Assembly (NCBI GenBank): GCA_036874045.1
Contig: CM072344.1
Location: forward strand, 9,458,501-9,522,500
DNA length: 64,000 nucleotides
Direction: 5' to 3'
From: Cymodocea nodosa
Taxonomy: Eukaryota > Streptophyta > Magnoliopsida > Alismatales > Cymodoceaceae
How positions within the stretch are numbered: position 1 is the stretch's first letter; each line of letters begins with the position of its first letter. The notes beneath the pieces are model-generated. The model was not told the DNA's origin. It searched no databases and saw nothing but the letters and a program-made list of their open reading frames with translations. A program made the position numbers and the translations under genes. Shown here piece by piece: positions 6,511 through 33,325 of this stretch.

Positions 6511-6960
6511 GTAAGTTAAAACTAAAAACAATTGAAGATCAAAATCATGAAAATGAAATACAAGAACATTATGAAAGTAATGAAAATCTGGAAGATGTAT
6601 TTATAACATTAAGATCTGAAACTGATATACCACCTAGAATTCAAAAAGAAAGTAATATGAAGGTAGATAAGAACAAAATTAAAAATGATAATGAAAATGT
6701 AATATCTGAAAACGTAGAAACCAATGAAGAAAAATCTAAATCTTAAAATGAGACTAAAAATGATCAAACGAATGAAATGAAAGAAAAAGAATCTTGTAAA
6801 TCACAATCATTAGCACCCTATCCTGAAAGATTACAACAAACATTTCTTGAAAAATAAGAAAAAATTAGAGAAATTTTTGAAAAAGTACAAGTTAACATTC
6901 TTTTGTTAGACTTATTGCAGAAAATGCCACCTTGTGCTAAATTTCTTAAGGATTGGTGTA
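6511..6960 (+). pseudogene. Pre-protease region of pol (host copy)
   Basis: Acidic and asparagine-rich segment that precedes the protease in this family (frame with IPPRIQKESNMKVDKNKI). It matches the minus-strand copy at 42384-42602. It contains in-frame stops near 6744 and 6855. The frame begins abruptly at 6511 because an LTR fragment sits directly upstream. No catalytic motif lies here. Confidence 0.6.
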
Positions 6961-8790: not shown

Positions 8791-9300
8791 TTTTAACTCC
8801 TATAATACAAGCACCTAATTGGAGCCATCCATTTGAATTAATATGTAATGCATCTGATTTTGCTGTAGAAGTAGTGTTGGGACAGAAGATAGAAAAATCT
8901 CCTAGAGTGATTCATTATGCAAGCAAAACTTTAATGATGCTCAAGTTAACTATACAACTACTAAAGAAGAACTATTAGTTATGGTGTTTGCCTTAAAAAA
9001 GTTTAGATCATATCTTATTGGAGCTAAAGTGATAGTATACACGAATCATTCAGCTTTAAAACACCTAATAGCAAAGAAAGAGACTAAACATAGATTGATC
9101 CGATGGATATTGTCATTGCAAGAATTTGATCTAGAAATTAAAGATAAAAAAGGTTGTGAAAATGTAATAGCAGACCATTTATCAAGGTTACAAATAAAAA
9201 AATCAAACATTGAAATTAAGGATAATTTTCCTGATGAACAATTAATGACCATAAACATAATGCCTTGGTATGCAGACATAGTTAATTACTTAGTTACTGG
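8791..9300 (+). pseudogene. RNase H domain (host copy)
   Basis: RNase H of gypsy type. The first catalytic Asp lies in CNASDFA, a frameshift follows, and the frame resumes at 8981 with [11 protein letters not shown]. The usual YTDHSAL block reads YTNHSAL (Asn codon 9044-9046), so a catalytic aspartate is lost; the minus-strand copy at 39769-40218 keeps Asp there. The last motif, ADHLSRL, is present. Confidence 0.8.
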
Positions 9301-10511: not shown

Positions 10512-11224
10512 GAAATAGATTAAAAAAAACTTATTTTAAATATAATCATGGTTCAACCAAAAGAAATTATCGGTTTTACTAAAATATATACTAAAAGAAA
10601 AAGATTGTTACGGTCACACTGAAAGGATCCATCGGTTTGACCGAAACATAAAAACATAGAAGTATATATATATTATATTAAATAAAAGTGTTAGTTTTAC
10701 CGAAGCTTGGTATTAGTTCAACCGGTAGAAAAAAGAAAAAAGTATTTAATTTCAGTTCAACCAAGGAAATATAACGGTTTGACCAAAATTCTAAAATGTT
10801 GAAAAATTAAGAGTCGGTCAGACTGAAAATTCTTCGGTCTTGATAGAATTAATAATTATTATTATAAGTATTTTTATTAGTTATTACTTTACGAGATGTC
10901 CGTTGAGTTATACTTAACTCAACAAACTTACTCCGTTGAGTTTAGGATAAGTTAACGAACTTACTTCGTTAAGTTAACTATAACTCAATGAAGTACTGTA
11001 GTTAAGTCGACGAACTTAGTCTATGGAGTTAACCGTAACTCTACGAAGAAGTAACTCTACGAGAGTTTGCGTGGGAAAATGACTCGATTACTCGCCAAAA
11101 ACTTAGGGTTTATTTATACTAAAACTTAGGATTTGGGGGCATTATCTGTAGAAATCATTTAGAACTTAGAACAGTAGAAGGCAGAGCGATTCTATTCTAT
11201 TCCATAACACCACGAAGATACAAG
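10512..11224 (+). other. Integrase-to-env spacer with palindromic arrays (host copy)
   Basis: Non-coding spacer. About 10550-10850 carries CGGTT..AACCG-type motifs in both orientations (for example TCGGTTTGACCGA near 10632). About 10895-11065 carries inverted GTTGAGTTA / TAACTCAAC pairs. A TTATTTATACT stretch near 11110 could be a weak TATA-like site. A G-run, TTGGGGGCATTATC, near 11135 is conserved in other copies. Confidence 0.7.
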
Positions 11225-11636
11225 ATGACGCTAGAATTCTAGGAAGCAGTTGACACTATAAGATTTCTTAGAGAATCAGAGGAATGGTATACACAACAAA
11301 AGATCAGGAACACGACATGGGAAAAAGAATTGGAAAAGGTAGAATTTGATATTTTCTATTGGAAAAAAGTTTTGGTTGATTTAGATATTAGAATACCTCA
11401 AATAGTAGAAACAAGAATCAAAGTAGCAACAGAAGTGGCTGTAAATAGAGAAAGAAGAATTAGACCAAATAATGAGGTTGCCCTCGAGTTAATCTAGCGC
11501 AAGTCATGACTGTGGTTTGTAAGACATATTATTGGACATGTTTGGTGGGAAATCAAGGAGCAACAGAAGAAAGCAGTTGAAGAACCTGTAGCTAAAGAGC
11601 TAGCTGCTGAAAAACCTATTACTAAGGAACTGCAGC
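11225..11636 (+). pseudogene. Env-like ORF, N-terminal part (host copy)
   Basis: Starts at ATG 11225 by alignment to 16173 of Element A and to 3221 (minus). It carries the conserved block with VETRIKVATEVAVN and several stops. At 11636 it is cut by Element A; the frame continues at 25972. Comparison with the uninterrupted copy near 2790-2830 (minus strand) shows the empty site, including the target bases. Confidence 0.75.
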
Positions 11637-13820
11637 TGTTTAGACTGAAAAAGTGCATATTATTAACGATTAAATGATGGTTAATTGCATAATATTTAGC
11701 TTATCATATAAGAATTAAGCCATTATGTTATAATTGCACTGTTATATGCTTTAATTGAAGAATCTACTTAATTTGGGGGGAATTAATGTTAATTTAGTAC
11801 ATTTACAAACTCTCGGTAAGTTGCAGGCTGTGAAATTCTTAAGTATCCAAATATTCTGATATTTTCGACAGTTATGTTTAACATACCGAACAAATTCAGA
11901 CAGTTATGTTTAACAGACCGAATATGTATCAGATAGTTATGTTTAAATTGCCGAACAGTTATGTTTTGAGAGAATATTTTATTATTTCCTGAAGTACACG
12001 TGTCAAAACCATAATGAATGACTTAAGTGAACTTTCGGTGAGTTATTTATAACTATCCGAAATTGCAGCTAGGCATCGGATAGTTATCCCTGTAACTCTC
12101 CGAAATCTCTTTTTATTTATAAAATAGCTGAGGACACGTGTCATGTTCTAGGAAATTGACTTAAGTGGATTTTCGGTGAGTTAGCTGTAACTATCCAAAA
12201 TGCATCTGAGCATCGGATAGTTATACTTGTAACTCTCCGAAATGTTATTTTATGATTAAATTGCTGCTGACACGTGTTGAGATCTAGTAGATTTACTTAA
12301 GTTATATATCGGTGAGTTATTTATAACTATCTGAAATGCATCTGAGCATTGGATAGTTAAGTTTATAAGTATCCGAAATGCACCTGAGCATTGGATAGTT
12401 AAATTTATGCATGTGTTTTATAATTAAATCAATGAAGAAAGTCCGTTGGGTTATCTGTAACTCCACGGACTATATATTTTCTAATATGCCACTATAGTGG
12501 TTGCAGGAACAGACAGTTGGAAGAGAAAAACCACGTTTGCACGTATCACGTAGGAATTCAATCGCATAGGGAGAAGAAAGCATCGTCGTTGATATGAATG
12601 AAGGAAATACAACCGACCATTCAAGCAGAAGTAGTTACTACTGAAGAAATATAAAAGAAAAGAAGAAAAAAAGAAAAAGGGTGTGATCGATGGGTGGATA
12701 GTGTGTGCAGAGGAGGATCGGCGACGCAATTCTCTGAAGTACCACACCAACCATCATCATCACCATCATCACCACCATAATCACCAACCATCAGAGGTCT
12801 GTGAGGATACTTGCCTGATGTCGGGTCAATTCCGCACCAAACACAATGCCTGACAACCACTGTGAGGAGTGATCGCGTCGCAGGAAGGGAAGCCATTTTC
12901 ACCAAGCGCCAGCTCATATTTCAGGAGATCGTAAAGCTTTTAGCCTTGGCTTCGGGTTGATGCCTGTATGCTGAAGAGGAGATCATCTTGCAATTCTAGA
13001 CTCGCGATTCTATAGGGAGAGGAGACAGGATTGTAAGTGGTTTAATTTTCAATGGTATAATCGCGTTGCAAGTACTGTCATAAGTATTTACTATCAAGTG
13101 AGATTACTTTACATTTCACCTGTTGCTCATTTCCATGTTCATATTAAAACAAAAATACCAAAAACAATTTATCTATGTTTGTATGTTGTATTTGAGTGTT
13201 GTATTGTTTGTGTTGTATCGTGATTAATGTTATCTTTATCAGTGTTGTGATTGTTTTATGTTTATTTTAATATTCTCTGAAGTGCCAGATTTTAATGGTT
13301 ACTATTTGAATTATCTGAATGTTAGTATTGCTCAATGATAAATCCAATGTTAACTAACATTAAAGAGCTTAATTGATGTTATTTACAATCTGTGGAATCG
13401 CCCAATGGTTGGCCGAATTCCTCTATAAATAGTAGTATTAAATAGAAAAGACAGGCTCGTGGAGTTAACTTAAGTCCATGAGGTTAGTCCGTTGAGTTAG
13501 CCATAACTCAACGAACTTAGTCCGTTGAGTTAACTATAAATCAACGAAGAGCTTATTGAATATATAAATTTGATTTTTAACAAACGAACAGTTCTCAAGT
13601 TCGTCTGCAATTCCCTATGGGATCGACCTGTACTTGCACACTGATACAATAGATACTGTGCACTTGTAGTTAAAGTACAAATTGGAATTAATATCTAAAT
13701 TGTATTAAAGGTTGTTTGTTTACTTCTAAAAGAGAGAATAGGCATAAAGATAAATTACTAAGTAAAAATAGATGTAACAAATCCAAGTTTTTTTAGTGTA
13801 GTGCTGGGAAAACCCAAACA
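11637..13820 (+). repeat. 5' LTR of Element A
   Basis: Pairs with 23760-25971. It contains GGATAGTTA / TAACTATCCGA inverted motifs (about 11870-12400), GTTGAGTTA arrays at about 12430-12475 and 13460-13550, a TATA-like box, and a CAT/CAC-rich triplet run near 12745-12785. A hand comparison of the 60 bases at 12481-12540 with 24602-24661 shows about five differences. There is a ~28 bp indel difference near 13270 / 25395. Antisense open frames here are not genes. Confidence 0.9.
12650..12657 (+). promoter_or_regulatory. TATA-like box in 5' LTR
   Basis: TATAAAAG in a purine-rich context, about 180 bases after a GTTGAGTTA-type array. It is conserved in the 3' LTR at 24773-24780. This is the best candidate core promoter for the genomic RNA. 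Confidence 0.6.
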
Positions 13821-13827
13821 AGTTTTA

Positions 13828-13845
13828 TGGCGTCATTGTCGGGGA
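13828..13845 (+). other. Primer binding site, tRNA-Asp type
   Basis: TGGCGTCATTGTCGGGGA starts seven bases after the LTR end. It resembles the complement of the 3' end of plant tRNA-Asp, the primer commonly used by Athila-type elements, with a few mismatches. Confidence 0.8.
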
Positions 13846-13929
13846 ATTGAATTGAATTGATATAAGCAACTATTAGAGCTGTTTCATTTTAATAGCCAGA
13901 GTTGTGTGTTTTCTTCTGTAATTGAGAAT

Positions 13930-15558
13930 ATGGCATATGCTTATGTTCAAAGATTTCTGAAACCTGTAATTAGCATATGTGAATTCTGCAATTCTGAAAG
14001 ACACGACATTTCTGACTATTTGAAATTGAGACGTTTATAGATGGTTAGATCCCATGAACAACAAATGAATTATCCTCAATATAATAAAGCCGAGTCTGAG
14101 AATCCTATAGTTTACCCAACTAATGGTTAGTATAGAATGTGTAATATGATGAGAGACATTGAAGTTTGGGATAGCTATAACAGACTACAGCATAGTATAG
14201 AGCAAAATCTGGACAAACTGGAACACTTTGTGTGTCAACAACAAGAAGTCAACCAATTAAACTATAAGGAGGCATATTCAGAACCTAAAAGGAATATAAT
14301 TTACGAAACTGAAAAAATCATAAAGAAAATTGATCAACAAGTGAATGCAATGAAATTAGATGATCTGGAAACAAAATTAAAAGCATTAGGCGAAAATGCA
14401 ATGAAAATACATGTTCCAGAAACTGAATATCCGAGTATATTGTCTTTCTGTCTTGACCAAGCTTGTGGATGGCATTTTGGTTCAGGAAAAACTATTGCAA
14501 AAATTCTACAATGTGGGTTTTATTGGCCAACACTATTCAAAGATGCTCATAAATATTGCTTAAGTTGTTTAAGATGTCAACAAATAGGAAGAATATCAAA
14601 GAGGAATATGATGCCTCTTAATCCTATTGTTGAGGTTGAAATCTTTGATGTATGGGGAATAGATTTTATGGGTCCATTTCCTATGTCTAATCAATTTAAT
14701 TACATATTGTTGGGGGTGGATTATGTATCAAAATGGATAGAAGTTATTCCTACAAAAACTAATGATAACAAAGTGGTAATACAATTTGTAAGAACAAATA
14801 TATTTGCCAGATATGGAATACCTAAAGCTATTATCATTGATAGAGGAACTCATTTCTGTAATAGAAGTTTTGAAGCCTTAATGAAAAAATATGGAGTAAA
14901 CCACAAAATTGCAACATCATATCATCCACAAACAAGTGGACAAGTAGAAAGTGCAAACAAACAAATTAAATTAATCTTGGAAAAAGTAGTAAATCCTACT
15001 AGAACAAATTGGGCTAATAGATTGATAGATGCACTTTGGGCTTATAGAATTGCTTATAAAACGAGCTTAGGTATGTCACCTTTTAGGCTAGTATATGGAA
15101 AAAGTTATCATTTACCTGCTGAAATAGAACATAAAGCTTATTGGGCATTAAAAACTCTGAACACTAATTTAAATCAAGCTGTTGAAAATAGAAAAATGCA
15201 ACTAATTGAATTAGAAGAATTTAGAAATGAAGCTTATTCGAATACTGTAAGAGAAAAAGAAAAAATTAAATTTTGGCATGATAGAAAAATTATTCCTAAA
15301 AGCTTTGAAATAGGACAAGAAGTATATCTTTATATGGCTAGACTCCATAACCATCCAGCAAAATTGAAATCTAGATGGGCAGGACCTTACATAGTTCGAA
15401 ATGTTTATCCTTATGGAGCTATTGAAATTGAAAATCCTAAAAATCAAAATATATTTAAAGTAAATGGACAAAGACTTAAACCTATTCTGAAAACACCAAA
15501 AAGCACCTTTGGAATTATAGAAGAAGTTAGAGTAGAGGATTACTTGAGCTTTACTTAG
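13930..15558 (+). pseudogene. Nucleocapsid/coiled-coil segment fused to integrase (Element A)
   Basis: One frame of 542 codons before the final stop, with two internal TAGs (14038, 14128). The first 25 residues hold CEFCNSERHDISDY, a decayed CCHC knuckle; the minus-strand copy has CX2CX4HX4C. A coiled-coil-like part follows to about residue 157. The frame then jumps in register into the integrase zinc region (SILSFCLDQACG), so protease, RT and RNase H are deleted. The first zinc His is Leu here. The core keeps D (VWGIDFMGP), D (IIIDRGTHF) and E (QVESANK). 14137-15558 is open. The C-terminal ends VRVEDYLSFT. Confidence 0.85.
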
Positions 15559-16172
15559 TAAGAAATCAGTTTTTATGTTTATATATAAAAAAAAACTGAA
15601 AAAAAAAAAAACATTAAAAATATATATATAACATAAAAATCGTTGCGGTTCAATCAACTAGATCCATCGATATGACCGGAACATAAAAAAAATATGAATA
15701 TTAATTTTCAGAAAAAAATTTTGGTTTTACCGAAATATAGTATCGATTCAACCGAAAGAAAAATTAAAAATAAAATATATATATATATTTAGGTTTGATC
15801 GAAACATAGTATCGGTTAAACCGGTAACAAAACAGAAAAACTATTCTCTATAATATTTTTATTATTATATTTGCTTGTATGGGGAGTCCGTTGAGTTACG
15901 CTTAACTCAACGAGCTTACTCCGTTGAGTCTTGAGTTAGTCAACGAGCTTATTCCGTTGAGTTAACTGAAACTCAACGGAGTACTATAGCTATGACCGTG
16001 GATAAAATAGTAATAGTTGGTTTGGGAAATGACCTGATTACCTGCCTAAACTTAGAGCTTATTTAAACTAAAACCTAGGCTTTTGGGGGCATTATCTGGC
16101 AAATCATTTAGAATCTAGAATAGTAGCAATCAGAGCGATTCCGTGCTATTGTGTAACTCCACGATGAGGAAG
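15559..16172 (+). other. Integrase-to-env spacer (Element A)
   Basis: About 15635-15840 has CGGTT..AACCG motifs. About 15885-15995 has an array with near-perfect palindromes such as CCGTTGAGTTAACTGAAACT continuing to CAACGG. A TTTTGGGGGCATTATC tract lies at about 16081-16096, and the env ATG follows at 16173. No coding potential is seen. Confidence 0.7.
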
Positions 16173-18382
16173 ATGACGCCTGAATTCTGGGAAGAGGCAG
16201 TGGACACCGCACAGTTTTTGAAGGAATCTGAAGAATGGCACACGAGGTAGAAGATCAGAAATACAACGAGAGAAAAAGAGTTACAAAAGGTAGAATTTGA
16301 ACTTTTTAGATTAAGAAAAATATTAGTAGATTGTGGTATACAGATACCGCAAATAATGGAGACACGAATTAGAGTGGCAACTGAAATTGCATTAAGTAAT
16401 GAAAAAAAAATCTGGCCAAACAATGAAGTAGCCCTAGAGCTAATTCAACGTAAAGCCAGATTGTGGTTTAAGAAACTTATTGCTGGACGAGGAAGCTGGG
16501 AAATATGGCAGCAGGAACAACGAGAGGCAACTGAAGGACAAGAGGAGACGACTACTGAAAGACCTATTCCTGAGGAACAGCAGTTAGGACCTTCAGTTCC
16601 ACCATTTAAGCCGTTGGCACGAGCAGAAATGATGGGGCCTTCGATTGAAGAAGAGAAAAGAGAATTTGCAGAACTGGTTCAAGTTGAGAAGAACCAAGGA
16701 GAATCAGAAGATTTGGTAGTGGCCAAAGCACACCTAGTGTTTGATGCACTTTATAAAAAGAGGGCTGCAGAAAAGTTGAAAGCCCAATATAAAATCAAAT
16801 TGGAATAGCATCACGAAGCTACTGCTAGAACTACTGCCAAATCTATTGCAAAAGAAGTTGAAGCTGGTCCTTCGAGACCAGTAGTTATAAAAAAAGTTAA
16901 ACAGGAAGAGCCAGTACCTGTGGCTTGAAGGCTTGCAGAACCAACTTTTATAGATTTAATTTCAGAAGATGAAGAGGAAGAACAGGCACAACTAATCAAA
17001 AAAAAGAAAGGAAAAGAAAAAGTGCCTGAATATGAGGAAATTAAATCTGAAGTACCAATTTTTACAGGGCCTGTGGAGCAGATTTTTATTAACTTGCTAT
17101 CTGATTCTGAGGAGGAGCAAGAGGAGCAAAGAAAAGAAGAAAATCAAGCTGAAATTAGTCTGCAGCCTGTACAAGAAGAAACAGAAATTAGGGTAGAAAC
17201 TGAATTGCCCGTGACTCCATCCCAATCTGTTATAGAATCAGAAAGAACAGTAACAGAACAAATTGGTAGTCAGGAGGAGCAAGAAAGTGAAGAAAATGAA
17301 GAGGCTGAAAGAAGCCATTTCGACAAAAATAATTTCACAGATTCCACTGAAGAACAAGAAACTCTTCAACAATTTATGGAGAGAATTCAAGACAGAGTGG
17401 AGAGTTCTGTCGGCTCACCACCACAGACAGAAGCAAAAGCAAAAATCCAGGAATCTGAAGAGAATGTCCAAATGCAGCCTATACTAGAGGAAGATCAAGA
17501 ACAAACCCCTCAGAAGCAACAAAGTCACCTTCCTGACCCGACTGAAACAACAATTTTGAATGAAGTACATTTTTGTAGTCAGGAAGCTTATACCAAATAC
17601 CAAGAAATAAGGGGTTATATATTATTTACAGTAGACCAGTAAATTGGGATGGAATGCAAGAAATCAAAGAATTATTTGAATTCCAAGGTCTAATGCAATT
17701 TATATCTCAGGAAAGAGGGCATGTAGTATATGAAAATTTAGTGTCCTGTTTCTATGCAAATTTGAGAGAAAGAGAAGGAGGATTAATTTCAAATGTGGAG
17801 GAAGCTGATGTAAAGATAACACCAGAGCTTCTCCACAACATATTTGGTTTAAAGAATGAAGGAATAAAAATTTTGGAAGATACAGCTGTCGTCGAGTGGA
17901 CTGAACAGGAAATCAAGGATTGTTTAGCTATCAATCCTGGTGTGCCATTATTAAATAGATTGAAGCATTTAAATGGTAAAGTACACATGGTAGCTAACAT
18001 TCTGATTAAGAATGTCTATCAACGACAAGGCCATGACATAGAATTAAGTCAATTTGTCAAATGGGCCACATATGCAGTTGTAAATAAGATCCAAATAAAT
18101 TGGTCTGCAGTTTTTGTCTCTAAGCTGAAAATAGTGAAGAAGAAATTATTTTATGGAGATTTGATTCCACTGTTGATGGTGGACTATATCGATTTCACTA
18201 AATGGACATCAAAAAGGATCAGATCAATAACCATTTCAGTGAAAGAATACAGAAATTTTGTAGCTGCAAAACTAGCTGTACCTTCTAGAGGAATTACAGG
18301 AGCAGTAGAGAGGATTAATCAATTAGAGTTTCAATTAGAAAAACTCCAGAAGGAAGTAGATGAACTTAGGCATAGAGATTAA
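16173..18382 (+). pseudogene. Env-like accessory ORF (Element A)
   Basis: Frame from ATG 16173 with TAG at 16248, TAG at 16806, TGA at 16926 and one single-base deletion at about 17618, after which the frame continues at 17654-18382. About 735 codons in all. The order is a charged N-terminus, a coiled-coil-like part (16620-16900), an acidic Glu/Gln-rich middle (DLISEDEEEE, then 17022-17642), and a conserved C-terminal domain with ELFEFQGLMQFIS, FYANL, GLKNEG, QRQGHDIELSQF and LFYGD. It ends in a leucine-zipper-like RINQLEFQLEKLQKEVDEL. The C-terminal domain resembles the 'putative plant transposon protein' region of plant env-like ORFs. I see no signal peptide or membrane span, so its role is unknown. 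Confidence 0.75.
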
Positions 18383-19483
18383 ATTGTATTGTTCGTCTAC
18401 TTATGTAAAATTGCATGAAATTGTATGATGTACTTGTATTGTAATTGATTCATATTAATGAATGTAAATTTTTCAGATGCAATTTTCATACGTGTTTTGG
18501 ATGTGAAATGAATGGAATTTATTGAATATTATGTTATTGTGAAACTTTATGAATGAATATGTAACAGATTTACAATTTGCTGAATGACAGGACAACTGCT
18601 TACAAATTTCTGCATGTTATAAGGTAAAATGTAAATTCTGCATAACATAAAATGACCTGCAAGTTAAATCTTTATATAAGATTTAGATTTAAATGAATTT
18701 TAATCAAAATGATGCATTAATGACATGGATTTAACTTTATTTCAGTTAGTAGAATAAACAAAGAAAAAAAACATAAAGGAACTTACGAGAGTAAAACTTA
18801 GAAGTTGCTAAGTGTTAACTAAATGAAGTAAGTCCGTTGAGTTAACCGTAACTCCACGAAGTCAGTAATATAATATCAAGTCACTTCGTTGAGTTATCTG
18901 TAACTCAACGAAGTTAGTCCGTGGAGTTAGCAACAGTAACTAACTGTATTATGTTGAGTTTTCTATAACTCAACGAGGTTAGTTCGTGGATTAAGCATAA
19001 CGGTTATTCTTTTAACCACGAACGAAGCTACGTCGGTTTAGCAGTTACCAAAATTTGAAATTAGTAGTGGTACACATACCCATATAAATAGGAACCACGA
19101 TGCACGTTGCAAGACACATTCTTGCAACGAGATTAATTCACTTTATGGATGCGCAATATATATATAAAACAGAATGTTATTTACGAGTTACCAACACTTT
19201 TAAAAGAAAGGAGAAGGCGTTGGAGGAACTGGAAGGAGAAGCAGCTGATTCAACTTCATCTGACAATAAATATTTATAGAATGGAAAGCTTCAGACTGGA
19301 ATGTAATTAATCTTCTGCTATTTATTTATGAGCACATGGACTCGTTCTCTAAGCACTAAACGATTAGTAAGAACACCTACCCAGGAATTTTCATTGTAGA
19401 GGAGTACTGAAAAATTTTCTGAACTGAACTTTAACGAAATTCTTTGGGGTGTAGCTAACCTTTCTTTAAAAGAGAACGTAGAG
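18383..19483 (+). other. Env-to-gag spacer with array and TATA-like box (Element A)
   Basis: About 18825-18995 carries inverted GTTGAGTTA / TAACTCAAC pairs. A TATAAATA box sits at 19083-19090, roughly 400 bases before the gag ATG. The minus-strand copy keeps this spacer (1-988), so it is a family feature. A pyrimidine run ending in TTTAAAAG|AG lies about 10 bases before the ATG and could be a splice acceptor. Whether the gag RNA starts here or is spliced from the LTR cannot be told from sequence. Confidence 0.6.
19083..19090 (+). promoter_or_regulatory. Possible internal TATA box before gag frame
   Basis: TATAAATA about 90-250 bases downstream of a palindromic array, the same order as array then TATA in the LTR. 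The minus-strand copy has an altered version near 200-210. This is inference only; no transcript data are available. Confidence 0.35.
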
Positions 19484-20671
19484 ATGGCTGCTCCAGTAGA
19501 AAAACCATTAGGAGAGATTCTATATCCTGAATTAGTTGATGAACCTCCATGTATTCGATTGCCAAACTTTGAGGGAGATAGGTTTGAACTAAAATCTAAT
19601 TATATTAGTCAATTGCCACATTTTCATGGATTAGAAAGAGAGGATGCCTATTATTTCCTTAGAGAATTTAACGAAGTTTGTCAAATGATGAAAATGCCGA
19701 ACATGAGTATAGATGCTATTAAACTTAGATATATTCCTTTTTCTTTAAAAGACATAGCTAAGAGATGGTTATATACTCTGTCGCCTGATTCAATTTCTAC
19801 ATGGACTAAATTTTACTCTATTTTTCTGGAAAAATATTATCCAACACATCAAACGATTAAAAAGAAGAAAGAAATATTAATGTGTAGCCAAAAACAGGGT
19901 GAATCATTCTGGAAATATTTTGAAAGATTTAAAGATTTACTGACTCAATGTCCACATCATGCAATGAGTAAAGCACAATTAATAGGTATAATTTATGAAG
20001 GCATAGATGTTTCAACGAAATCTTTATTAGAATCTACTTGTCAAAATGGATTTTTAAAATTATGTAGTGAAGAAGCATGGGCATATTTAGAAAATTTTGC
20101 AAAAAGAACTGCACAATGGGAAAATTCGGCTAAAGCTATTGTAGATAAAAAAATATTACCAAGAGGAATGCATGAAATAAATTCCAATACTATGCTTGAG
20201 GTGAAATTAAATGAATTAACAAAGAAAATAGAAGAGTTATCATTAAATCAAAAGCTAGCAGAAAAGAATGCAAACATAAATGACTTAGATATTATTTATG
20301 CTAGAAACCAGAGAGATAACTTGGGAAATTCTTATCATCCTAATTGGAGAAATCACCCGAATTTATCTTGGAGAAACAACAATTTCCAGGGAGGAGAAAA
20401 TATAAATGAGAAACACATAAGTTATGAAGTATTAATTGAACAAGGAGCTAGAATAGAAAAATTAGAAAAGATAATCCAACAAGTAAACAATCGTCTAGAA
20501 TTTATATTTGGAAATGCTGCAATTCAAAATCAGAATAGAAATATATCACTTAGACAGAAGGAACCAATGGAAGTTAGACCTACTGGAGGATTGCCAATAC
20601 AAGCTATACCTAATCCTGTCAATAGAACAGTTAATGAAATTGATACCTCATCTGGGAGGGCAGCTGAATGA
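19484..20671 (+). CDS. Gag capsid protein, displaced 3' of env-like ORF
   Basis: Intact frame of 395 residues. It has the Athila-type retrotransposon gag core: LPNFEGDRFELK near residue 27, AIKLRYIPFSLKDIAKRWLY near residues 85-105, FLEKYYPTHQTIKKKKEI, then SFWKYFERFKDLLTQCPHH and the EEAWAYLENFAKRTAQWE block. A coiled-coil-like part follows (about 245-270), then YHPNWRNHPNLSWRNNN, a known Athila gag hallmark, and a second coiled coil near 315-340. No zinc knuckle is present; that motif sits at the 5' end of the element (13930 on). In normal Athila elements this capsid part precedes protease. Here it lies after the env-like frame. It should assemble virus-like particles in the cytoplasm. Confidence 0.85.
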   Translation: MAAPVEKPLGEILYPELVDEPPCIRLPNFEGDRFELKSNYISQLPHFHGLEREDAYYFLREFNEVCQMMKMPNMSIDAIKLRYIPFSLKDIAKRWLYTLSPDSISTWTKFYSIFLEKYYPTHQTIKKKKEILMCSQKQGESFWKYFERFKDLLTQCPHHAMSKAQLIGIIYEGIDVSTKSLLESTCQNGFLKLCSEEAWAYLENFAKRTAQWENSAKAIVDKKILPRGMHEINSNTMLEVKLNELTKKIEELSLNQKLAEKNANINDLDIIYARNQRDNLGNSYHPNWRNHPNLSWRNNNFQGGENINEKHISYEVLIEQGARIEKLEKIIQQVNNRLEFIFGNAAIQNQNRNISLRQKEPMEVRPTGGLPIQAIPNPVNRTVNEIDTSSGRAAE

Positions 20672-20861
20672 AGCAACATATCTGAAGCAACTATCTGTAT
20701 GTATATATGTTTTTTATTTTTAGTTAATAGTATCGTAGAGTTAATTTTTAACTCAACGAACTTAGTCTGTTGAGTTATGCCTTAACTCCACGAGGGTGTG
20801 CAGTAGTTAGATTAATTTTTGTCTCTGCTAAATTTTTGTTTGTGTTATACAGAATCGACAA
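20672..20861 (+). other. Gag-to-F-box spacer
   Basis: 190 bases with two inverted GTTGAGTTA-type pairs at about 20730-20795. A T-rich run ending in TTATACAG lies just before AATCGACAAATG, which reads like a plant 3' splice site 10 bases upstream of the F-box ATG. A GTATATATG after 20697 could be a donor. Splicing is only a possibility. Confidence 0.5.
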
Positions 20862-21794
20862 ATGGAATTGATGCAATTACCAATGGATGCACTAAGGGAA
20901 GTACTAAGTAACTTGTCAGCTAAAGATCTGTGCAAGCTGTGTTGTGTATCAAAGGAAATTAAAGACTGTATTGAAGAAAAATATTTTTAGGGACTACAAG
21001 CTGCAAAAATGACTAAGATTAGAGAAGGATTCATATGGAAGTCATTTAATCGTAGTTCAAATACCCATGAATATCTGGCTATGGAAGAAACTACTAGAAT
21101 TCCACCCAATGCATTAGAAGGAATAAATCATATTATGGGGATAGATAAAGGATTAATCATATACAAGACGAGACCAAGGTATGCAAGTTTATTATTACCT
21201 GATATTTTGATAAGAAATCCTATAACAAGAGAAGAATGGAATATAGGAAGACCTAATAAATTTGAAGCACCAACTGTAAATTGTGGGTCAGCTTTAATAT
21301 TTTCTGATAAAAATTCTACAATTCCTGAAAAATTATATTATTAGAGACCTACAAAAAATTGGGGTGAAGATTTACGCTTAAGTGTGTATAATTTTCTGAA
21401 TAGATCTTGGAATGAAAATATTATGATATATCTAGGACAAAAATCATTAATTAACCAAACACATGTTAAACTTGATGGATATATATATCTAGTCACGGAG
21501 ATATCATTAGCATATGGATCTGATTTATACATAGTGAGCATAAACAGTTATGATGAATATATAGAAATTTTACCTATACCGAGTGAAATAGCTAAACCAC
21601 CATCTGCAGAATTTAATGAAATTCAAATAGGAATGTGGTATAATGAAGAAGATGATCCTACTTTATGTCTGATAAGATGGTGGGATGAACTGATGAAATT
21701 TCAAATATGGATTATGGAAGACATAAATGAATGGAAGTGGGAAGAGGAGTATATTGAAATAGATGTAGAAATAGAAACTACTACATTACCCTGA
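20862..21794 (+). pseudogene. F-box / F-box-associated protein ORF captured inside retrotransposon
   Basis: A single frame of 310 codons before the final stop, broken only by TAG at 20988 and TAG at 21342. Residues 5-40 form an F-box: LPMDALREVLSNLSAKDLCK followed by LCCVSKEI. The remainder resembles an F-box-associated (FBA) domain: KGLIIYKTRPR, RNPITREEW, YYxRPTKNW, and near the end TLCLIRWWDELMKFQIWIM. F-box proteins are substrate adaptors of SCF ubiquitin ligases. Both stops sit where tryptophan is likely (YF-stop-GLQ and YY-stop-RP), so TGG to TAG changes would explain them. It lies between the gag frame and the 3' non-coding part of Element A, behind the same type of spacer as the other frames. 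It may have worked in the active ancestor. Confidence 0.75.
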
Positions 21795-22417
21795 AACTAA
21801 AAAGGATCCCTTTCTGCATTACATATCATTAATGGTAATACACTCGTATTTGGAATTTATAATATATTAAATGTTTACAAATTAAGAAGGAACAAGAACT
21901 GCATTAAAACAGAATTAATAGTAAGAAGAACTATGCCTAAAAAGTTTGCTTGGACTGATACATTTATTCCATTTGTTTCTACTTTTCAATCATGTTTTTA
22001 AGCTGTGATTTTATGTGTTTAATGTTGTGTGTATTCTACATTTATTGTTAAAAAAAAAAAGAGAAAAAAAAATTTTAGTTTTCATTTTTATTTTATAAAA
22101 CAAAAAAAACAAAATATCAATCCAATTTGTTGGTATCTGTTTTGGGAAACCAACTAGCTTGCTTGTGAGCCACCAAAGGCATAGGAGCTTGGGTTCAACA
22201 CAAGACACTGATTTATTAATATCTATTAAATGTTCTTTTGTTTTATATTTTGTTTTTATCTGTGAATGAAAAGTTTTTCAGAATCAAAAATTAGAATATG
22301 TAGAAGGAGATACAAATGAAACAAGGTATGTAACTAATTACTCATCCTGAATTTTAAATCAAGCAAAATTGTATTCATGCCTGCTACAATTACTGTACTT
22401 ATTGTCAAACTCTTTAC

Positions 22418-22452
22418 ATTGAGGACAATACAAAATGTAGGTATGGGGGGGA
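22418..22452 (+). other. Internal polypurine-tract-like block
   Basis: ATTGAGGACAATAC is followed by TAGGTATGGGGGGGAGG. The last part nearly repeats the terminal tract TTAGGTATGGGGGAAG at 23744-23759. The first part matches the conserved text found just after pol in many Athila elements. Confidence 0.55.
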
Positions 22453-23256
22453 GGTAATTAAAGTAACAGCCATGTAAGTTTGTTAATTAAAGAAATTAAA
22501 ATAGTACTGCAAAGTTTTGAGGAAATTGAAAATTTTATGAACTTGCTGTAACTATCCAATAATTGAGACTGTAAAATTTTTATAAACTGCTTGACTGTTA
22601 TATTTAGAAGGCTATATAAGATGCTATTGAATTTATTATTTATGCAAATCTAGATATAGTATCTTATGTTTTTTTGAATTTCATGAGTTTAACAGTTTCA
22701 CGATTTTAAAATGATATCAGAATGCTTAATGAAAAATCAGTAAATTATCTGAAGTCCTGAAAGAGTTGAGATGTGAATTCTAGATTAAATGAAACACATA
22801 TGATTAAAGATACATTTAATTTGACTGATTGAACTTGTAGAATGATTTATGTGTAGATCTTATTAAACTACAGAAAAAGTATGAGCTTATTGTTATGGAT
22901 TCATATTTTCAGTAACTGATAGAAGCAGGACTATATGAGATTGGTGATTACAGCATCTGTATTAATGAAATACATACATATATAGTATGTGATTAATGTT
23001 TTGTTTTGTGTTTGTAGTTTTGGAAAAAAAAAAAAAAAAAAAGGAAAATTTGAGAGTTTGTTGACTTGTTTGATCACGAACCTTTTGTACTTGAGCAGAT
23101 AGGTATGTTAGGATTGTTGACTTGAAAAAGGACTCTTAAAATCTAGCAACCTAAGATCCTAATCAGATCTGGAATTGTTGACTAAAAGCTCGTTACATGG
23201 GTACATTAGAAAGCTCTTATATGATTCAAGCTTGTCAAATTAATTTTTAAAGTACA

Positions 23257-23281
<25 letters not shown>
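23257..23281 (+). repeat. AT dinucleotide microsatellite
   Basis: Uninterrupted (AT)n run of roughly 12 units inside the 3' non-coding part of Element A. Confidence 0.9.
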
Positions 23282-23287
<6 letters not shown>

Positions 23288-23743
23288 CTGTTCTGAAAAG
23301 ATACAAGTGTTTTGTGAAATACAGATATCTTATGAATCGAGTATATTTTCTATTATCTAGAATTGTTGAAATATGAATCTAGAATTGACTTTTGAAGTTG
23401 TTTAATGGAGATACAATTCTTTATTCTACTTGTCTTAATCAGATTGAATTAGATTGTACTCTGATTCGTATGTTGTTGAAATTTCTACTAGAAATCTTAT
23501 TGGAAAATTCAGGATGACAGATGATGAAAAGAAGAACAAACGATAATATAATTAACACCTATATGATGATGATATACTTGGTATGTAATTTACATATATT
23601 CTAAATATATTTGCAGGTTGATTACTGAAACATACAGAATATATTTTTATGCTAAACAGAAGAAAAACAAAGGGGAAGAATTAATTCTAGCACTTTTAAA
23701 GACCAATTAATTAGATCTTAGTTTGCTAAGGGACTAGCAAAAT

Positions 23744-23759
23744 TTAGGTATGGGGGAAG
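23744..23759 (+). other. Polypurine tract
   Basis: TTAGGTATGGGGGAAG ends directly at the first base of the 3' LTR (TGTTTAGAATG), as needed for plus-strand DNA priming. Confidence 0.85.
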
Positions 23760-25971
23760 TGTTTAGAATGAAAAAGTGCATATTACTAACGGTTAAATGA
23801 TGGTTAATTGCATAATATTTAGCTTATCATATAAGAATTAAGCCATTATGTTATAATTGCACTATTATATTCTTTAATTGAAGAATCTACTTAATTTGGG
23901 GGTAATTAATGTTAATTTAGTACATTTATGAACTGTCGGTAAGTTGCAGGCTGTGAAATTCTTAAGTATCCGAATATTCTAATATTTCGGACAGTTATGT
24001 TTAACATACCGAACAAATTCAGACAGTTATGTTTAACAGACCGAATATGTATCGGATAGTTATGTTTAAATTGCGGAACAGTTATGTTTTGAGAGAATAT
24101 TTTATTATTTCCTGAAGTACACGTGTCGAAACCATAATGAATGACTTAAGTGAACTTTCGGTGAGTTATTTATAACTATCTGAAATTGTAGCTAGGCATC
24201 AGATAGTTATCTCTATAACTCTCTGAAATCTCTTTTTATTTATAAAATAGCTGAGGACACGTGTCATGTTCTAGGAAATTGACTTAAGTGGATTTTCAGT
24301 GAGTTAGCTGTAACTATCTGAAATGCATCTGAGCATCGGATAGCTATACTTGTAACTCTCTGAAATGTTATTTTATGATTAAACTACTGCTGACACGTGT
24401 TGAGATCTGGTAGATTTACTTAAGTTATATATCGGTGAGTTATTTATAACTATCCGAAATGCATCTGAGCATTGGATAGTTAAGTTTATAAGTATCCGAA
24501 ATGCACCTGAGCATCGAATAGTTAAATTTATGCATGTGTTTTATAGTTAAATCAACGAAGAAAGTCTGTTGGGTTATTTGTAACTCCGCGGACTACATAT
24601 TTTCTAATATGCCACTGTAGCGGTTGCAGGAACAAACAGTTGGAAGAGAAAAACCATGTTTCCACGTATCACGTAGGAATTCAATCGCATAGGGAGAAGA
24701 AAGCATCGCCGTTGATATGAATGAAGGAAATACAACCGACCATTCAAGCAGAAGCAGTTACTACTGAAGAAATATAAAAGAAAAGAAGAAAAAAAGAAGA
24801 AAGGTGTGATCGATGGGCGGACAATGTGTGCAGAGGAGGATCGGCGACGTAATTCTCTGAAGTACCACACCAACCATCATCATCACCATCATCATCACCA
24901 CCATAATCACCAACCATCAGTGGTCTGTGAGGATACTTGCCTGATGTCAGGTCGATTCCGCACCAAACACAGTGTCTGACAACCACTGTGAGGAGTGATC
25001 GCGTCGTGGGAAGGGGAGCCATTTTCACCAAGTGCCGGCTCATATTTCAGGAGATCGTAAAGCTTTTAGCCTTGGCTTCGGGTTAATGCCTGTATGCTAA
25101 AGAGGAGATCATCTTGCAATTCTGGACTCGTGATTCTATAGGGAGAGGAGACAGGATTGTAAGTGGTTTAATTTTCAGTGGTGTAATCGCATTGCAAGTA
25201 GTGTCAGAAGTATTTACTGTCAAGTGAGATTACTTTACATTTCACCTGTCGCCCATTTCCATGTTCATATTAAAACAAAAATACCAAAAACAATTTATCT
25301 ATGTTTGTATGTTGTATTTGAGTGTTGTATTGTTTGTGTTGTATCGTGATTAATGTTATCTTTGTCGATGTTGTGATTGTTTTATGTTTATTTTAGATTT
25401 ACAGTTTACTGAAATTGGTTCGTTCAAAAGACTTAAAGATTTTAATGGTTACTGTTTGAATTATCTGAATGTTAGTATTGCTCAATGATAAATCCAATGT
25501 TAACTAACATTAAAGAGCTTAATTGATGTTATTTACAATCTGTGGAATCGCCCAATGGTTGGCCGAATTCCTCTGTAAATAGCAGTATTAAATAGAAAAG
25601 ACAAGCTCGTGGAGTTAACTTAAGTCCACGAGGTTAGTCCGTTGAGTTAGCCATAACTCAACGAACTTAGTCTGTTGAGTTAACTATAAATCAACGGAGA
25701 GCTTATTGAATATATAAATTTGATTTTTAACAAACAAACAGTTCTCAAGTTCGTCTGCAATTCCCTGTGGGATCGACCTGTACTTGCACACTGATACAAT
25801 AGATACTATGCACTTGCAGTTAAAGTACAAATTGGAATTAATATCTAAATTGTATTAAAGGTTGTTTGTTTACTTCTAAAAGAGAGAATAGGCATAAAGA
25901 TAAATTAACTAAGTAAAAACAGAAGTAGCATATCCATGTTTTTCTAGTGTAGTGCTGGGAAAACCCAAACA
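23760..25971 (+). repeat. 3' LTR of Element A
   Basis: Pairs with 11637-13820 over its full length, with scattered mainly transition differences and one ~28 bp length difference near 25395. It ends CCCAAACA at 25971 and is followed by gtagc, the target duplication. A TATA-like TATAAAAG is at 24773-24780. Confidence 0.9.
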
Positions 25972-27011
25972 GTAGCCAAGACCATCCATTCCACCACCAA
26001 GGCCGTTAGAAAGAGCAGCATTTTTGGGGCCATCAACGCTAAAGGAATGGAGAGAATTTGTAGAGCTTGTTAAAGTTGCCAAGAGCCAAGGAAATTTTGA
26101 AGATATGGTTGTGGCAAAGACACATTTATTGTATGATGCACTCTGCAAGAAAAGGGTCGAAGATAAGTTGAAGGCCCAATATAAAATTAAAGTAGACCAA
26201 CATTCTAAAGTAGCTAGATCACTAGCTGCAAAAGAAACTGAAGCTGGTCCTTCAAAACTAGTAATTATAGAAATAGTGAAATGGGAAGAGCCAGTACTTG
26301 TGGCTCGAGGGCTTGGAGAGCCCAATTTTGTTGACTTAGTCTTAGAGGAGGAAGGGGAAGAACAAGCACAACTAATTAGAGGAAAAGGAAAAGAAATAGT
26401 GTCTGAAGCTCAAGTAGAAATTAAACCTGAGCCTATACTATCAATAGGGCCTAAAGAGCCCATTTTTGTTAATCTACTATTCGAATCTGAGGAGGAGCAG
26501 GAGGAGCAGCAGCAAGAGAAATAAAAGAAGAAAAACAGGCTGAAATTAGTCTATAGCCTATACAAATAGAAGAAATAAGTAGGGAAGAAGCTGATTTGCC
26601 CATGACTCCATCCCAATCTGCCACAAAATTAGAAAGAACAGTGACAATGCAGATTGGTAGTTAGGAGGAAGAAGAAAGAGAAGAAGCCGGACATACTAAA
26701 CAAAAAGGAAATGACTCGACAGATTCCACTAAAGAGTGAGAGACTCTTCAACAAGTTATTGAGAGAGTACAAGAAAAAAGAGTGGAGAGTTCTGTCAACT
26801 CTCCACCATAGACAGAAGTAGAAACAAGAATACAGGAATCTTTGGATCATTTCCAACAAACACAAGTTCAATATTTTGAGGAAGAAGTAGAAAGGCAAAC
26901 CCTAATAGAGGAACAAATTCAAATTCTTGATCCTTCCCAATAGCAAGTTCTGAATGACATGTTTTTGGAGTTAGGAAGCAATGAATAAATATGAAGAGAT
27001 AAAGGGGTTTG
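25972..27011 (+). pseudogene. Env-like ORF, middle part (host copy)
   Basis: Continues the frame cut at 11636. The coiled-coil-like segment (26024-26524, MGPSTLKEWREFVELVKVAK) matches 2490-2750 (minus). An acidic Glu/Gln-rich part with several stops follows. At 27011 it is cut by a solo LTR; the sequence AAGAGATAAAGGG before and GATATTATATATAGTAGACC after rejoin when the LTR is removed. Confidence 0.75.
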
Positions 27012-29230: not shown

Positions 29231-30509
29231 CACCCAATAGGTTTGGCCTAAAGATACAAATCTTTATTCACTTTCAATAAACTCGAAGTGCCGTTGTTTT
29301 TTGCACTATAATAGCATCTGATACACGAGTGCAATGGAAGAATATTTTTTTCCCCAATTTTATTGCATGCTTTAATGATGCACGAAGGTAATAAACCAGA
29401 TCTCATGTTTATAATACTAGTCAAACATGTTTAAGTGGAAAGAAAGTGTTGACTCTGTCATGTTTGACTGGTGAAAATCGAAATAGATTGTTGTTGTTAA
29501 GGGATCTGCTAATGGTGATGTTTGCTTGAGCCAGCAACAAGTTGATGGTAAAAAACGTCTTCTTGAGTTGGTAAGTTTCTGTGTACTTCTGAACTAGTAT
29601 TACATATATTTTGTAGGTCAATTCTCCCTTGGAACAAATCAATTAAAAAGTTACTTTCAAGATAGCGTATGAGTTATCAGCCACATTTTTCAGCATACAC
29701 CTTTTTGCATAATTATACTGCTACCTAGAATATGTAATCAAAATTTCTCTTTTGATTGGTAGCCTTTTATCTTGTGAATGGTTAACTTAGTTTTGATTCG
29801 TTAATATGAAAATTTGTAAATTTACTTGCAAAATGGTTTTCTTGCACATGTTACAAATTTTAATCCCAACATTCCTGATTTTTACATATACTTTTTACAT
29901 TTGTGAAGTTATTTCATAAGCAAGTAGGTCATTTTCTTATTTGCTGGATTTGTACATTTGATGCTAATTTATTATATCTAATTTTCATTGATGATTGAAA
30001 GTAGCATTAATTTATGGAATCTGTAGTATGTGTGAGAAAGATGAAACATTGCTTGATAGCTAGGTATTCTTAACTACCACCTTTGTAAGAGTTTGGATTT
30101 TATTTTGTTATGCTGCTTTGAGATCTAGGAAAAAAAATTCTAGTCGAACATTTGTTTCCATTATAAATAGTTTATAATACTATTTTCTTCCTTCATGTTA
30201 TGAGTTTCAAATGTCACTTTGTTCAATAGATGCACATTAGTTATAAGAATCAATTAAACCTTTGTCAAACATCACATAGAAGATTTGACCAATCTTTTGT
30301 GTAGAACTCCTACAAATTTCATTTTACATAACGTGTGTAGCATGTCCAATGATTAATTGTTTTACTTTGTTTTTACTTTTGCAATTCTCTTATATGATTT
30401 TGACAAAAATATGAATGTAATGGTATTTGCAAATGCATATGAATATTTGTATTATTGTTGTTATTCCATATGTTTTATTGTAGTTGTTGAAACTGTGCTT
30501 GTGTAGAAA

Positions 30510-31544
30510 ATGAGTACTCCTGATAAGGGAAGGACAGGTGGAGGTAGAAGTTACATTAGTTGGAATGCTGAAGCAGATGCGTATTTCTTAGATATTTTAG
30601 CAGAAGTATTGAATGAAGGAAATAAGAAAACTCATGATGGAAAAATCAAAGGTAGCACTTGGGATGAAGTAATTGAAAAATACAATACTAGAAGAAACAC
30701 AGGTATCACAAGGAAGAATGTAGAAAGTCGCTTAAAAACTTGGCGACTAATGTATCGAAATTACTCCAAAATTGCCAACCAGAGTGGATGGGGTTGGAAT
30801 TTCATCCAAGGTTACACTGACATTGATGATGAGATTTGGAAAGAGTTCGTTAAGGTTAATTTTTTAATCACTTATGACTTATAAAATATTGTAATCTTTA
30901 TTTTTTTCCATTTGACTACAATTTTCTTTTTATAGGCACATCCAAAGTGTGAAAGCTAAAAAGGCAAACCATACTTGATATTTGAGCAATTGCAACAAAT
31001 ATTTGAAGGTAGTATAGCCACTGGGAATATGGCTAAACAAGGTGATGAGGTAGAGTTTGTACCAAACACACAGGATGTGGAAATGAACACTTTCAATACT
31101 ACTCAGGAAACAATGGACATGGATTCTGATTTACCTCCTTCATCAGGAGGAAGTTCAAGGGTGGCAACTGAGAAGAAGAAGAGACGAGCAAGACCTCATG
31201 CAGTGTCCCATCAAATCATAGCAGATTCATTTAAAGATGCATCAAAAGCCATTATGCATATGTGTGAAATAGATCAACAAAATCAAGCTACACGGAACGA
31301 GCAATTTAAAGAGTTGGTTGATACACAAAAAAAATTAGTTGAAGTACAGGAAAGGTTGGTTGATATTAAAGAAAAGACTAAAAACTATTTAGATCATGCT
31401 GTTGCAGCGTTACTTCAGATTGAAGGTCTTTCTACAAAAGAACAATATGAAGCTATGGAGTTATTCCAAAAGCTAGAATTTTGTAAAATGTTCTTAAGTT
31501 TACCAGCAGAAATGCGTTATGGATGGTTGAGGTTTAGGAAGTGA
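30510..31544 (+). pseudogene. Myb/SANT-like DNA-binding protein of PIF/Harbinger (ORF1), one stop
   Basis: Exon 1 is 30510-30854 and exon 2 is 30936-31544, joined in phase by a GT-AG intron of 81 bases. Exon 1 holds the Myb/SANT-like (Myb_DNA-bind_3) domain: SYISWNAEADAYFLDILAEV and NVESRLKTWRLMYRNY. Exon 2 holds an acidic/Ser-rich part, a basic KKKRRARPH stretch and a coiled-coil-like C-terminus. A TAA at 30957-30959 interrupts exon 2 soon after its start; the decayed copy near 61040 has TAC there. This protein normally helps the transposase enter the nucleus and bind the ends. Confidence 0.85.
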
Positions 31545-31782
31545 GCATATGGTTACAATGGATGAAATGTTTGTTTTGTGCATGAATTCACTTTCTTTCC
31601 AATCTTGAACTTCTTGTGTTTATGAAGTGTTTTCGTGAATGTAATATTTTATGGATGAAATCTTTTTGTGGAAGGTCATATATGGATGAAATGTAAAATG
31701 GATATTATATATTGAAATGTGAAATGACTTATCATTATGAAATGTAAAATGCTTTTTATTAGTTGAAACATCGAATGTCTTT

Positions 31783-31885
31783 TATTTTCTTAAAAATGTG
31801 AAATGTCTTTTATTTTCTTAAAAATGTGAAATGTCTTTTATTTCCTTAAAAATGTGAAATGTCTTTTATATATTGAAATGTGAAA
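31783..31885 (+). repeat. 28 bp minisatellite between ORF1 and transposase
   Basis: Three or more near-identical units of about 28 bases containing AATGTGAAATGTCTTTTATT, with looser copies upstream from about 31690. Confidence 0.85.
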
Positions 31886-31924
31886 TGGTAAATTCGTAAT
31901 ATTCTTGTTATTTTGTAGGTGAGG

Positions 31925-33325
31925 ATGAATCCTAGTGACATGTTTACTACTACAGTTGATAATGCAATTTCATTCATACTAGATGAAGAAGAAGTGGCTA
32001 GAAGAAGGCGACTACGTCTATTAATGTCATGGACAATTTTAGCAAAAATGGCAAGTACGTCACTATTACTATACAATAACACAAGTCGTATATATAGTAA
32101 AGAAGGTGCAAATTACATTAAGAGATTACTAGATCCTTGTCAACCTCATCAAGCTTACAATTGTCGGAAGATTTACAGAATGAGTCAAAGTGTGTTTAAA
32201 AGTTTTTGTTCTTTAATGAGAAATGAAGGAGTTATTGCTGATACCGCCAACATTAGTGTAGAAGAGAAATTTGCCATGTTCCTTGTCACAGTAGGGCAAA
32301 ATCAAAGGTATGGAGTAACAGTTGAGCGATTTAGTCGTTCAAGTTGGAGTGTTAGCAAATACTTTAATGAAGTATTAAATGCTATAATACGTCTACATCA
32401 TGTGCTTATAGCAAGACCTTTATCTTCAACACTAAGTCGAATTGCAGATGATGTAAATGTTTATCCATATTTTAAGGTATGTATTCACTTTTGTATATAT
32501 ATTGTAGTTTTTATCTTATTTAAGGAATTAAATTATGTTTAATGTGTATAGGATTGCATTGGAGCTATTGATGGTACTCATATCAAAGCAACTATTTTTG
32601 GACAAGAAACAGCTAGATTTAGAAATAGGAAAGGTGAATTGTCTCAAAATGTGATGGCAGCAAGTAATTTTGATATGAGATTTACATATATTTTAGCTGG
32701 TTGGGAAGGATCAGCAGCTGATGCTCGTATCCTTCAAGATGCAATTAGTAGACCTAATGGTTTCAAAGTTCCTCCAGGTAAATGCAATTAGTATATTTTC
32801 AAGTAATATGCACATTATCATACTAATTTCTATTCTTCTATAGGTAAGTTTTACTTGGTAGATGCTAGATATCCCAATCGACCAGAGTATATTTGCTCAT
32901 TTCGAGGTGTACGCTATCATTTATCTGATTATGTTAATGATAGACTTCCTAGTAATGCTGTAGAAAACTTTAACTACAAGCATTCACAACTAAGAACAGT
33001 CATTGAGCGTACATTTGGAGTTGTGAAACATCGTTTTTCAATCTTACGAGGTCAGATGCCATATCCATATGAAACACAAGTGAAGATTGTGATCGCATGT
33101 TTTTTACTTCACAATTTCATTCGATTGGCTGATAAAGAAGATTTACTTGAAGATTTGCAAGATGAGTTAGAAGAATTAAATATTACTGATGATATACAAC
33201 CAACAGGAGAAGTGCATATGGATGGACATTCACAGGTTGGAACGAGTCAAGAACAACGAAAAGAATTAGCTGATAAGATGCGTGAGGATATGATGATAGC
33301 AATGTGGGATGGAAGGACTATTTAA
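31925..33325 (+). CDS. PIF/Harbinger DDE transposase
   Basis: Three exons: 31925-32476, 32552-32777, 32844-33325. Both introns are GT-AG and the joined frame has no stop (419 codons plus the stop). ATG 31925 follows a plausible 3' splice site (TTTTGTAG at 31911-31918), so a 5' UTR intron is possible. The N-terminal part has the conserved RKIYRMSQSVFKSFC region. The catalytic triad is visible: D in CIGAIDGTHIKA (exon 2), D in WEGSAADARIL (exon 2), E in RTVIERTFGVVKHRF (exon 3). HNFIRL follows and the C-terminus is acidic. This is the DDE_Tnp_4 family. Its frame is intact although the partner ORF1 carries a stop. Confidence 0.92.

Follow-up and report, generated by a model that had tools for sequence, protein, structure and literature searches.

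The additional open reading frames (ORFs) of Ty3/gypsy retrotransposons have been sorted into 314 groups, with a domain match reported for 21.4% of the extra-ORF proteins (PMC6317226), and many of the additional ORFs of plant retrotransposons are described as lacking both a recognisable domain and a known function (PMC6317226, PMC7264820). Among the exceptions, certain orchid Gypsy elements carry an ORF for an AlkB-type m6A demethylase, which is active in vitro; of the plant Gypsy families considered, they come closest to a precedent for the retention of a host-type protein in an additional ORF (PMC9289625). F-box proteins have been linked to mobile or parasitic elements in other ways. In Thlaspi arvense, a single ‘LTR-gene’ of the F-box family is described as linked to an LTR retrotransposon and later duplicated in tandem (PMC8764390); in poleroviruses, an F-box-like motif of the P0 protein contacts SKP1, and for one P0 this contact is reported to stabilise the protein and not to be needed directly for the suppression of silencing (PMC6593998). 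As for the control of silencing and of gene expression by elements themselves, the VANC proteins of VANDAL transposons are described as sequence-specific anti-silencing proteins (PMC10398659, PMC5735166), and in Ogre elements a part of the RNA undergoes splicing (PMC6317226).

No report of an F-box gene fixed in an LTR retrotransposon family was found among the matches listed in a literature search that covered titles and the first parts of abstracts, supplements (e.g. the extra-ORF domain table of PMC6317226) lying outside it. Likewise, the word F-box does not occur in the main texts of PMC11728184, PMC9289625, PMC11963269, PMC6317226, PMC2410132 and PMC1142308. UPWARD CURLY LEAF1 was considered as a precedent and set aside, the case being, as described, that of a LINE beside an F-box gene.

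The DNA analysed here, the window in what follows, is a stretch of 64,000 nucleotides from Cymodocea nodosa. It contains Element A (11637-25971), bounded by two LTRs in forward orientation at 11637-13820 and 23760-25971, which are 94.3% identical by self-BLAST, have TG...CA ends and are flanked by GCAGC/GTAGC, a 5-bp repeat with one difference. The LTR pair has a K2P distance of 0.0506, which, at two assumed rates, corresponds to an age of roughly 2 to 3.6 million years. All internal features mentioned below are read on the forward strand, except for the palindrome, which has none. Most of pol has been deleted, the start of the first ORF being fused to integrase (13880-15558, with rve and Integrase_H2C2 matches) and protease, reverse transcriptase (RT) and RNase H being gone; the alignment to a pol-bearing element (E) breaks at 14411-14415. 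The gap between pol and gag holds a Glu-rich ORF region at 16356-17642 (ORFs 16356-16808 and 17022-17642), in which nothing scored above the Pfam cut-offs, and a Transposase_32-like additional ORF at 17654-18382. The latter is followed by the end of an exon (19111-19298, the 5′ limit being a guess) and by an interval, read as an intron and ending in ACAG (19299-20852), which encloses an intact gag (capsid) ORF of 395 amino acids (19484-20671; Retrotrans_gag, PF03732, E 2.1e-19) and a spacer with a palindrome at 20750-20776. The F-box gene occupies 20862-22001. Thus, the placement given in the preliminary description, which had put the F-box frame between gag and the non-coding 3′ portion of Element A and behind a palindromic spacer, is confirmed on both counts, the palindrome being one of 32 strand-matches in the window where 0 are expected.

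The 27-base palindrome recurs between frames and within the LTRs, for instance at 13505-13531, 15904-15930, 18902-18928, 20750-20776 and 25655-25681. Element A itself lies within another element of its kind, one that bears pol and whose two halves (6516-11635 and 25972-27009) meet at 11635/25972.

Several features recall the Athila lineage, namely the long LTRs, the presence of Retrotrans_gag, RT, RNase H and integrase, the nesting of copies, most of them decayed, and the presence of additional ORFs on the 3′ LTR side of pol (as described in PMC2410132, PMC6317226, PMC1142308 and PMC11728184). A Transposase_32-like ORF after pol is also described for sunflower Athila 14, and the position between pol and the 3′ LTR fits an ORF of the Athila ORF-1 kind, the profile match itself being weak (PF20167, E 1e-4, 22.7 bits against a cut-off of 45). 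In the pieces scanned, which make up part of pol, RNase H matched RT_RNaseH families only, a point that bears on the distinction between Athila, which has no second RNase H of archaeal type, and Tat/Ogre/Retand. In addition, a stretch a few bases past the LTR resembles what is taken to be an Athila-type tRNA-Asp primer binding site. On the whole, the family may be classed as Athila-like by layout and by general features, with gag not in the first position; it differs from the elements described in these papers in having gag 3′ of pol and within an intron-like interval, and in carrying an F-box gene.

That the frame encodes an F-box, as first noted from the sequence, is certain. The Pfam profile scan of the window copy matched PF00646 at 20862-20987 with E 5e-11 and 42.5 bits against a cut-off of 20.5, so that the absence of any significant F-box match, which would have spoken against the preliminary description, was not what was found. 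The F-box-like profile PF12937 matches the same stretch (E 5.6e-07), and two open copies from elsewhere in the genome gave 40.1 and 37.7 bits with PF00646 (cut-off 20.5). The domain proper comprises residues 4-41 (20871-20984), which form three helices, with pLDDT of about 70-80, in the otherwise poor model of another copy. In open copies the full frame has 379 codons, equivalent to 20862-21998 of the window with the stop at 21999-22001. The two TAG stops that had been counted in 310 codons are both present in 20862-21791; the end of the frame at 21794 had been placed wrongly, the TGA found there being itself a premature stop within the 379-codon frame of the open copies, and one more premature stop follows shortly after, which brings the number to four. 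The window copy is, therefore, a decayed one.

For the remainder of the protein, the FBA label of the preliminary description is not supported at significance: on the last piece of the window frame, after the second stop, FBA_1 (E 0.058) and FBA_3 (E 2.7) are both below threshold, and of the two open copies scanned one gave FBA_1 with E 0.022 and 15.1 bits against a cut-off of 21.1, while the other gave no FBA match. With FBA below the cut-off, the putative substrate domain is left without a name. A structure prediction that drew on ten copies (mean pLDDT 36) was unsuccessful beyond the F-box, and a search of solved structures with the F-box protein gave no meaningful match. A search for relatives among about 5.8 billion public proteins, a set of uncertain plant share, found none at E 0.01, and none was found in the viral contigs searched.

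The presence of the F-box across the family was followed with three queries. When the genome was queried with the F-box itself (the best 150 scored of 5175 first-look candidates, which are candidates rather than confirmed copies), 20 ten-kb stretches were compared; the F-box was followed by the same 3′ part in all 20 and then by LTR sequence in 19, L021 being the exception, and what preceded it was gag, complete or partial, plus the spacer in 16 stretches and a spliced-type junction in the other four. The other two queries choose copies in a manner free of the F-box itself. With gag (the best 105 scored of 7741 first-look candidates), ranks 2-19 were examined at the place where the F-box was expected, and it was found behind gag in 18 of 18, cut short in two. 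With the Transposase_32-like ORF of another element of the window (the best 150 scored of 10391), the single place examined, picked by predicted position, carried the F-box as 1231 bp at 93% identity. The 379-codon frame is fully open in 5 of the 18 gag-selected copies and in 10 of 40 F-box-selected loci (in four of the 40 the start strings were not found by the script). Thus, the F-box is a resident gene of the retrotransposon family, in line with what had been proposed from the window alone, and the absence of the frame from all other family members, an outcome that would have told against that proposal, did not materialise. The comparison covers copies closely related to that of the window, older history being out of view; an older element of the window (minus strand, 1-4449) was traced beyond the window edge in search of a diverged F-box, and the match ends before gag.

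A second departure from the usual plan concerns the order of the genes. Three F-box copies with an apparently intact upstream pol (L018, L025 and L028, with L031, L029 and L030) were followed further, and in all three the LTR is followed, after no more than about 100 bp, by sequence that aligns with the pol element of the window, starting at its first ORF and extending past RT and into RNase H; integrase, gag and the F-box come next. In other words, in the copies followed, those with pol also bear the F-box (3/3), pol begins shortly after the 5′ LTR and gag lies 3′ of integrase (3/3). The two LTRs and the order RT-RNase H-integrase are those of Ty3/gypsy elements (RVT_1, RT_RNaseH and rve follow one another along pol in the pieces of the pol elements of the window, RVT_1 being found also in L029), whereas gag does not come first, as it would in the order GAG-PROT-RT-RH-INT given for Ty3/gypsy in the survey cited (PMC6317226). 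Pieces of L029 matched RVT_1 with E 2.7e-28 and, weakly, an aspartyl protease profile, and a piece of L030 gave a weak protease match below the cut-off. By eye, the first pol ORF starts with a zinc-knuckle-like stretch; a Pfam scan of the first-ORF piece of L029 found no domain. Since the space ahead of the first ORF is too short for a capsid domain, gag sits 3′ of pol. Such an order is unusual for Ty3/gypsy, and as odd as the F-box itself.

The pol-then-gag layout of these copies is also seen in the window at 14137-20671. A subfamily (L018, L020, L025 and L026, with L012 and L028 nearly the same) lacks the equivalent of 15997-18333, with an identical junction and a 3-base filler; missing with it are the Glu-rich ORF and the greater part of the Transposase_32-like one.

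How an F-box gene placed behind gag might be expressed is suggested by the four ten-kb copies (L011, L022, L023 and L026, out of 20) in which the equivalent of 19299-20852, i.e. gag and the spacer, is exactly absent, the junction in L011 having two base differences. Among copies that keep the relevant bases, the interval starts with GT in 12 of 13 and ends with AG in 15 of 16; the window copy has the AG and lacks the GT. A 27-base pattern of the joined sequence, with one mismatch allowed, occurs at 138 places in the genome (65 forward and 73 reverse, 100 being listed), as compared with 0 for the reversed control, and the junction lies 495-501 bp upstream of the queried piece in 17 of 18 hand-picked F-box matches, the eighteenth being L011. 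A tree built from the flanking sequences of 20 loci plus the window copy does not unite the four spliced-type copies: L023 pairs with L009 (support 0.98), and L026 belongs to a clade of support 1.00 that excludes the other three. The gag-less junction seems, then, to have arisen from reverse-transcribed spliced RNA more than once, and recombination between copies may also have spread it. According to the model that these junctions suggest, unspliced RNA would yield Gag, and RNA from which the interval has been removed would yield the F-box protein, its start codon lying behind the upstream exon; the F-box may be a downstream cistron of the spliced RNA. The switch in the protein made by partial splicing can be likened to that of Ogre-type elements, in which, as described, the intron divides parts of the polyprotein; here, unlike there, gag itself would lie within the interval and the F-box would form the downstream exon. 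Just upstream of the exon that becomes linked to the F-box, the region 19070-19135 shows, by eye, a TATA-like motif (near 19080) followed by an inverted repeat, and as a candidate internal promoter this region is speculative.

The reading favoured here, which may be called probable without being secure, is that of a family-resident gene for a 379-residue F-box protein, located just 3′ of gag, reached by splicing and predicted to encode an SCF adaptor, of which the window frame would be a decayed copy. The F-box would bind host SKP1, and the C-terminal part would bring to the SCF ubiquitin ligase either a host protein by which the element is held in check or the Gag that the element itself encodes. 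Of the mechanisms that can be envisaged from the sequence, action as an SCF adaptor is the most likely.

Whether the protein is of use to the element can be approached through the pattern of changes among copies, which bears directly on another explanation, namely that the gene stems from a single capture of a host F-box gene and has since been carried as a passenger in a burst of transposition without any benefit, its open frames simply reflecting youth. The copies do look young, K2P lying at 0.023-0.092 for six LTR pairs or parts of pairs (on the assumption that the two members of a pair derive from one element), and the abundance of gag-less copies, judged from the 138 junction matches, makes it possible for elements to spread with functions supplied in trans. 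On the other hand, diversity at A/T sites, computed over 20 loci plus the window copy, amounts to 0.018 for the F-box gene, close to that of gag (0.0195) and less than half that of the long non-coding parts (0.041-0.045); the short non-coding pieces are themselves less diverse than these long parts, with 0.024 for the short exon preceding the interval, 0.034 for the 5′ end of the interval and 0.035 for the spacer, and the value for the F-box in the gag-selected set is 0.020. Further tests compared stops and nonsynonymous to synonymous ratios (N/S) with expectations in which changes were scattered over sites of the same methylation context. In the 16 gag-selected copies that span the full gene there are 24 stops versus 37.5 expected (P 0.0075), five stop-free copies versus 1.5 expected (P 0.013) and an N/S of 2.34 versus 3.21 expected, with 0 of 500 scatters as low, in copy counts to which an inherited variant contributes repeatedly. 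When every variant is entered a single time for the same 16 copies, which are an unbiased set, the F-box gave no significant deficit, N/S being 0.87 of expectation (P 0.19) and stops 18 versus 20.9 expected (P 0.30). Counted in this same way, gag gave 0.71 (P 0.0095), integrase 0.56 (P 0.003) and a non-coding control, read in three frames, 0.83 (P 0.04), 0.99 and 1.05. The test for purifying selection between copies that the preliminary description had proposed has, then, a mixed outcome: diversity and the copy counts suggest such selection, and the once-per-variant counts show no significant deficit.

Other measures were tried and rejected or gave little. Plain Nei-Gojobori dN/dS (40 sequences, i.e. 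39 loci and the window copy, L042 falling under the length filter) is uninformative because wrong frames give similar values: 0.53 was obtained for the F-box versus 0.42 and 0.59 in its wrong frames, 0.50 for gag (0.37 and 0.57), 0.41 for integrase (0.46 and 0.49) and 0.47-0.55 for non-coding sequence, an insensitivity to frame that probably results from the dominance of C-to-T changes. A strong codon-position signal over residues 161-379 in the F-box-selected set was discarded, these copies having been picked by protein similarity within a portion of it; outside the queried part the signal is absent in that set (P 0.25), and in the gag-selected set it reaches P 0.04-0.06. The once-per-variant N/S of the F-box-selected set (0.74, P 0.0015) carries the same selection bias and was also set aside. 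The contrast of singleton with shared variants gave P 0.38 for the F-box in its own frame and P 0.002 for one wrong frame. As a whole, these results point to a weak to moderate constraint on the F-box among young copies, and purifying selection is suggested, not proven. Carriage as a passenger is further at odds with the presence of the F-box in all 18 copies chosen by gag and with the fact that two of the four gag-less ten-kb copies, L023 and L026, keep it fully open; it is regarded as rather unlikely, while deserving serious consideration.

The predicted SCF adaptor has also to be set against a protein that is made and useful in some other manner, its F-box serving for stability in the SKP1-bound state or for the occupation of SKP1, and its C-terminal part doing something else. 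The lack of any domain above cut-off in the C-terminal part would suit such a role, as would the stabilising effect of SKP1 described for one polerovirus P0 (PMC6593998), which also makes the viral precedent invoked in the preliminary description less simple than had been assumed. The overall architecture speaks for the adaptor instead. Plant F-box adaptors usually have the F-box at the N terminus and a long C-terminal part behind it, and the same layout is found here; a useful protein of a different kind is deemed improbable. The chance insertion of a separate host F-box gene or fragment in a single element can be dismissed as virtually without likelihood, because the place of the gene is common to all copies checked with three queries (18/18, 1/1 and 20/20).

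A bolder form of the adaptor reading holds that a plant retrotransposon family has its own SCF adaptor, switched on by the splicing out of gag, that would destroy a host restraint, which might act in RNA silencing or in silent chromatin, in a retroelement counterpart of the viral F-box suppressors in which gag has come to lie behind pol. It is put forward tentatively, as possible but on the doubtful side, and the action against silencing or host factors is, as the preliminary description had said, speculation. The parallel with polerovirus P0 lies in a parasitic element that encodes an F-box-type contact with SKP1; P0, as described, differs in belonging to an RNA virus, in having an F-box-like motif and in having been studied for its link with AGO1, whereas here a full Pfam F-box is followed by a long C-terminal part. 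VANC resembles the role guessed for the F-box protein, being carried by a transposon and directed against silencing, and in the accounts of it consulted no link with F-box proteins or ubiquitin is named. Compared with the orchid elements, the protein is an F-box protein rather than an AlkB, the element is laid out differently and the role of the F-box is a predicted one. Finally, the Thlaspi ‘LTR-gene’, as described, is one gene of an expanded host family, whereas the gene reported here is part of a multiplied element family and stands behind gag.

Among additional ORFs of plant retrotransposons, this one has a domain that points to a named pathway, and its likely route of expression can be seen as a splice-like junction in the genome. 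These features suggest that the element may use the protein-disposal machinery of the cell, and the handling of host control by a retrotransposon becomes testable in terms of which host protein the F-box protein binds and whether the bound protein is degraded. An LTR element with gag after pol and within an intron would, in turn, be adjusting the ratio of its proteins by unusual means. Elsewhere in the window, two related copies at 30494-33325 and 60586-63250 are, judging from their translations, apparently DNA transposons of the Harbinger type.
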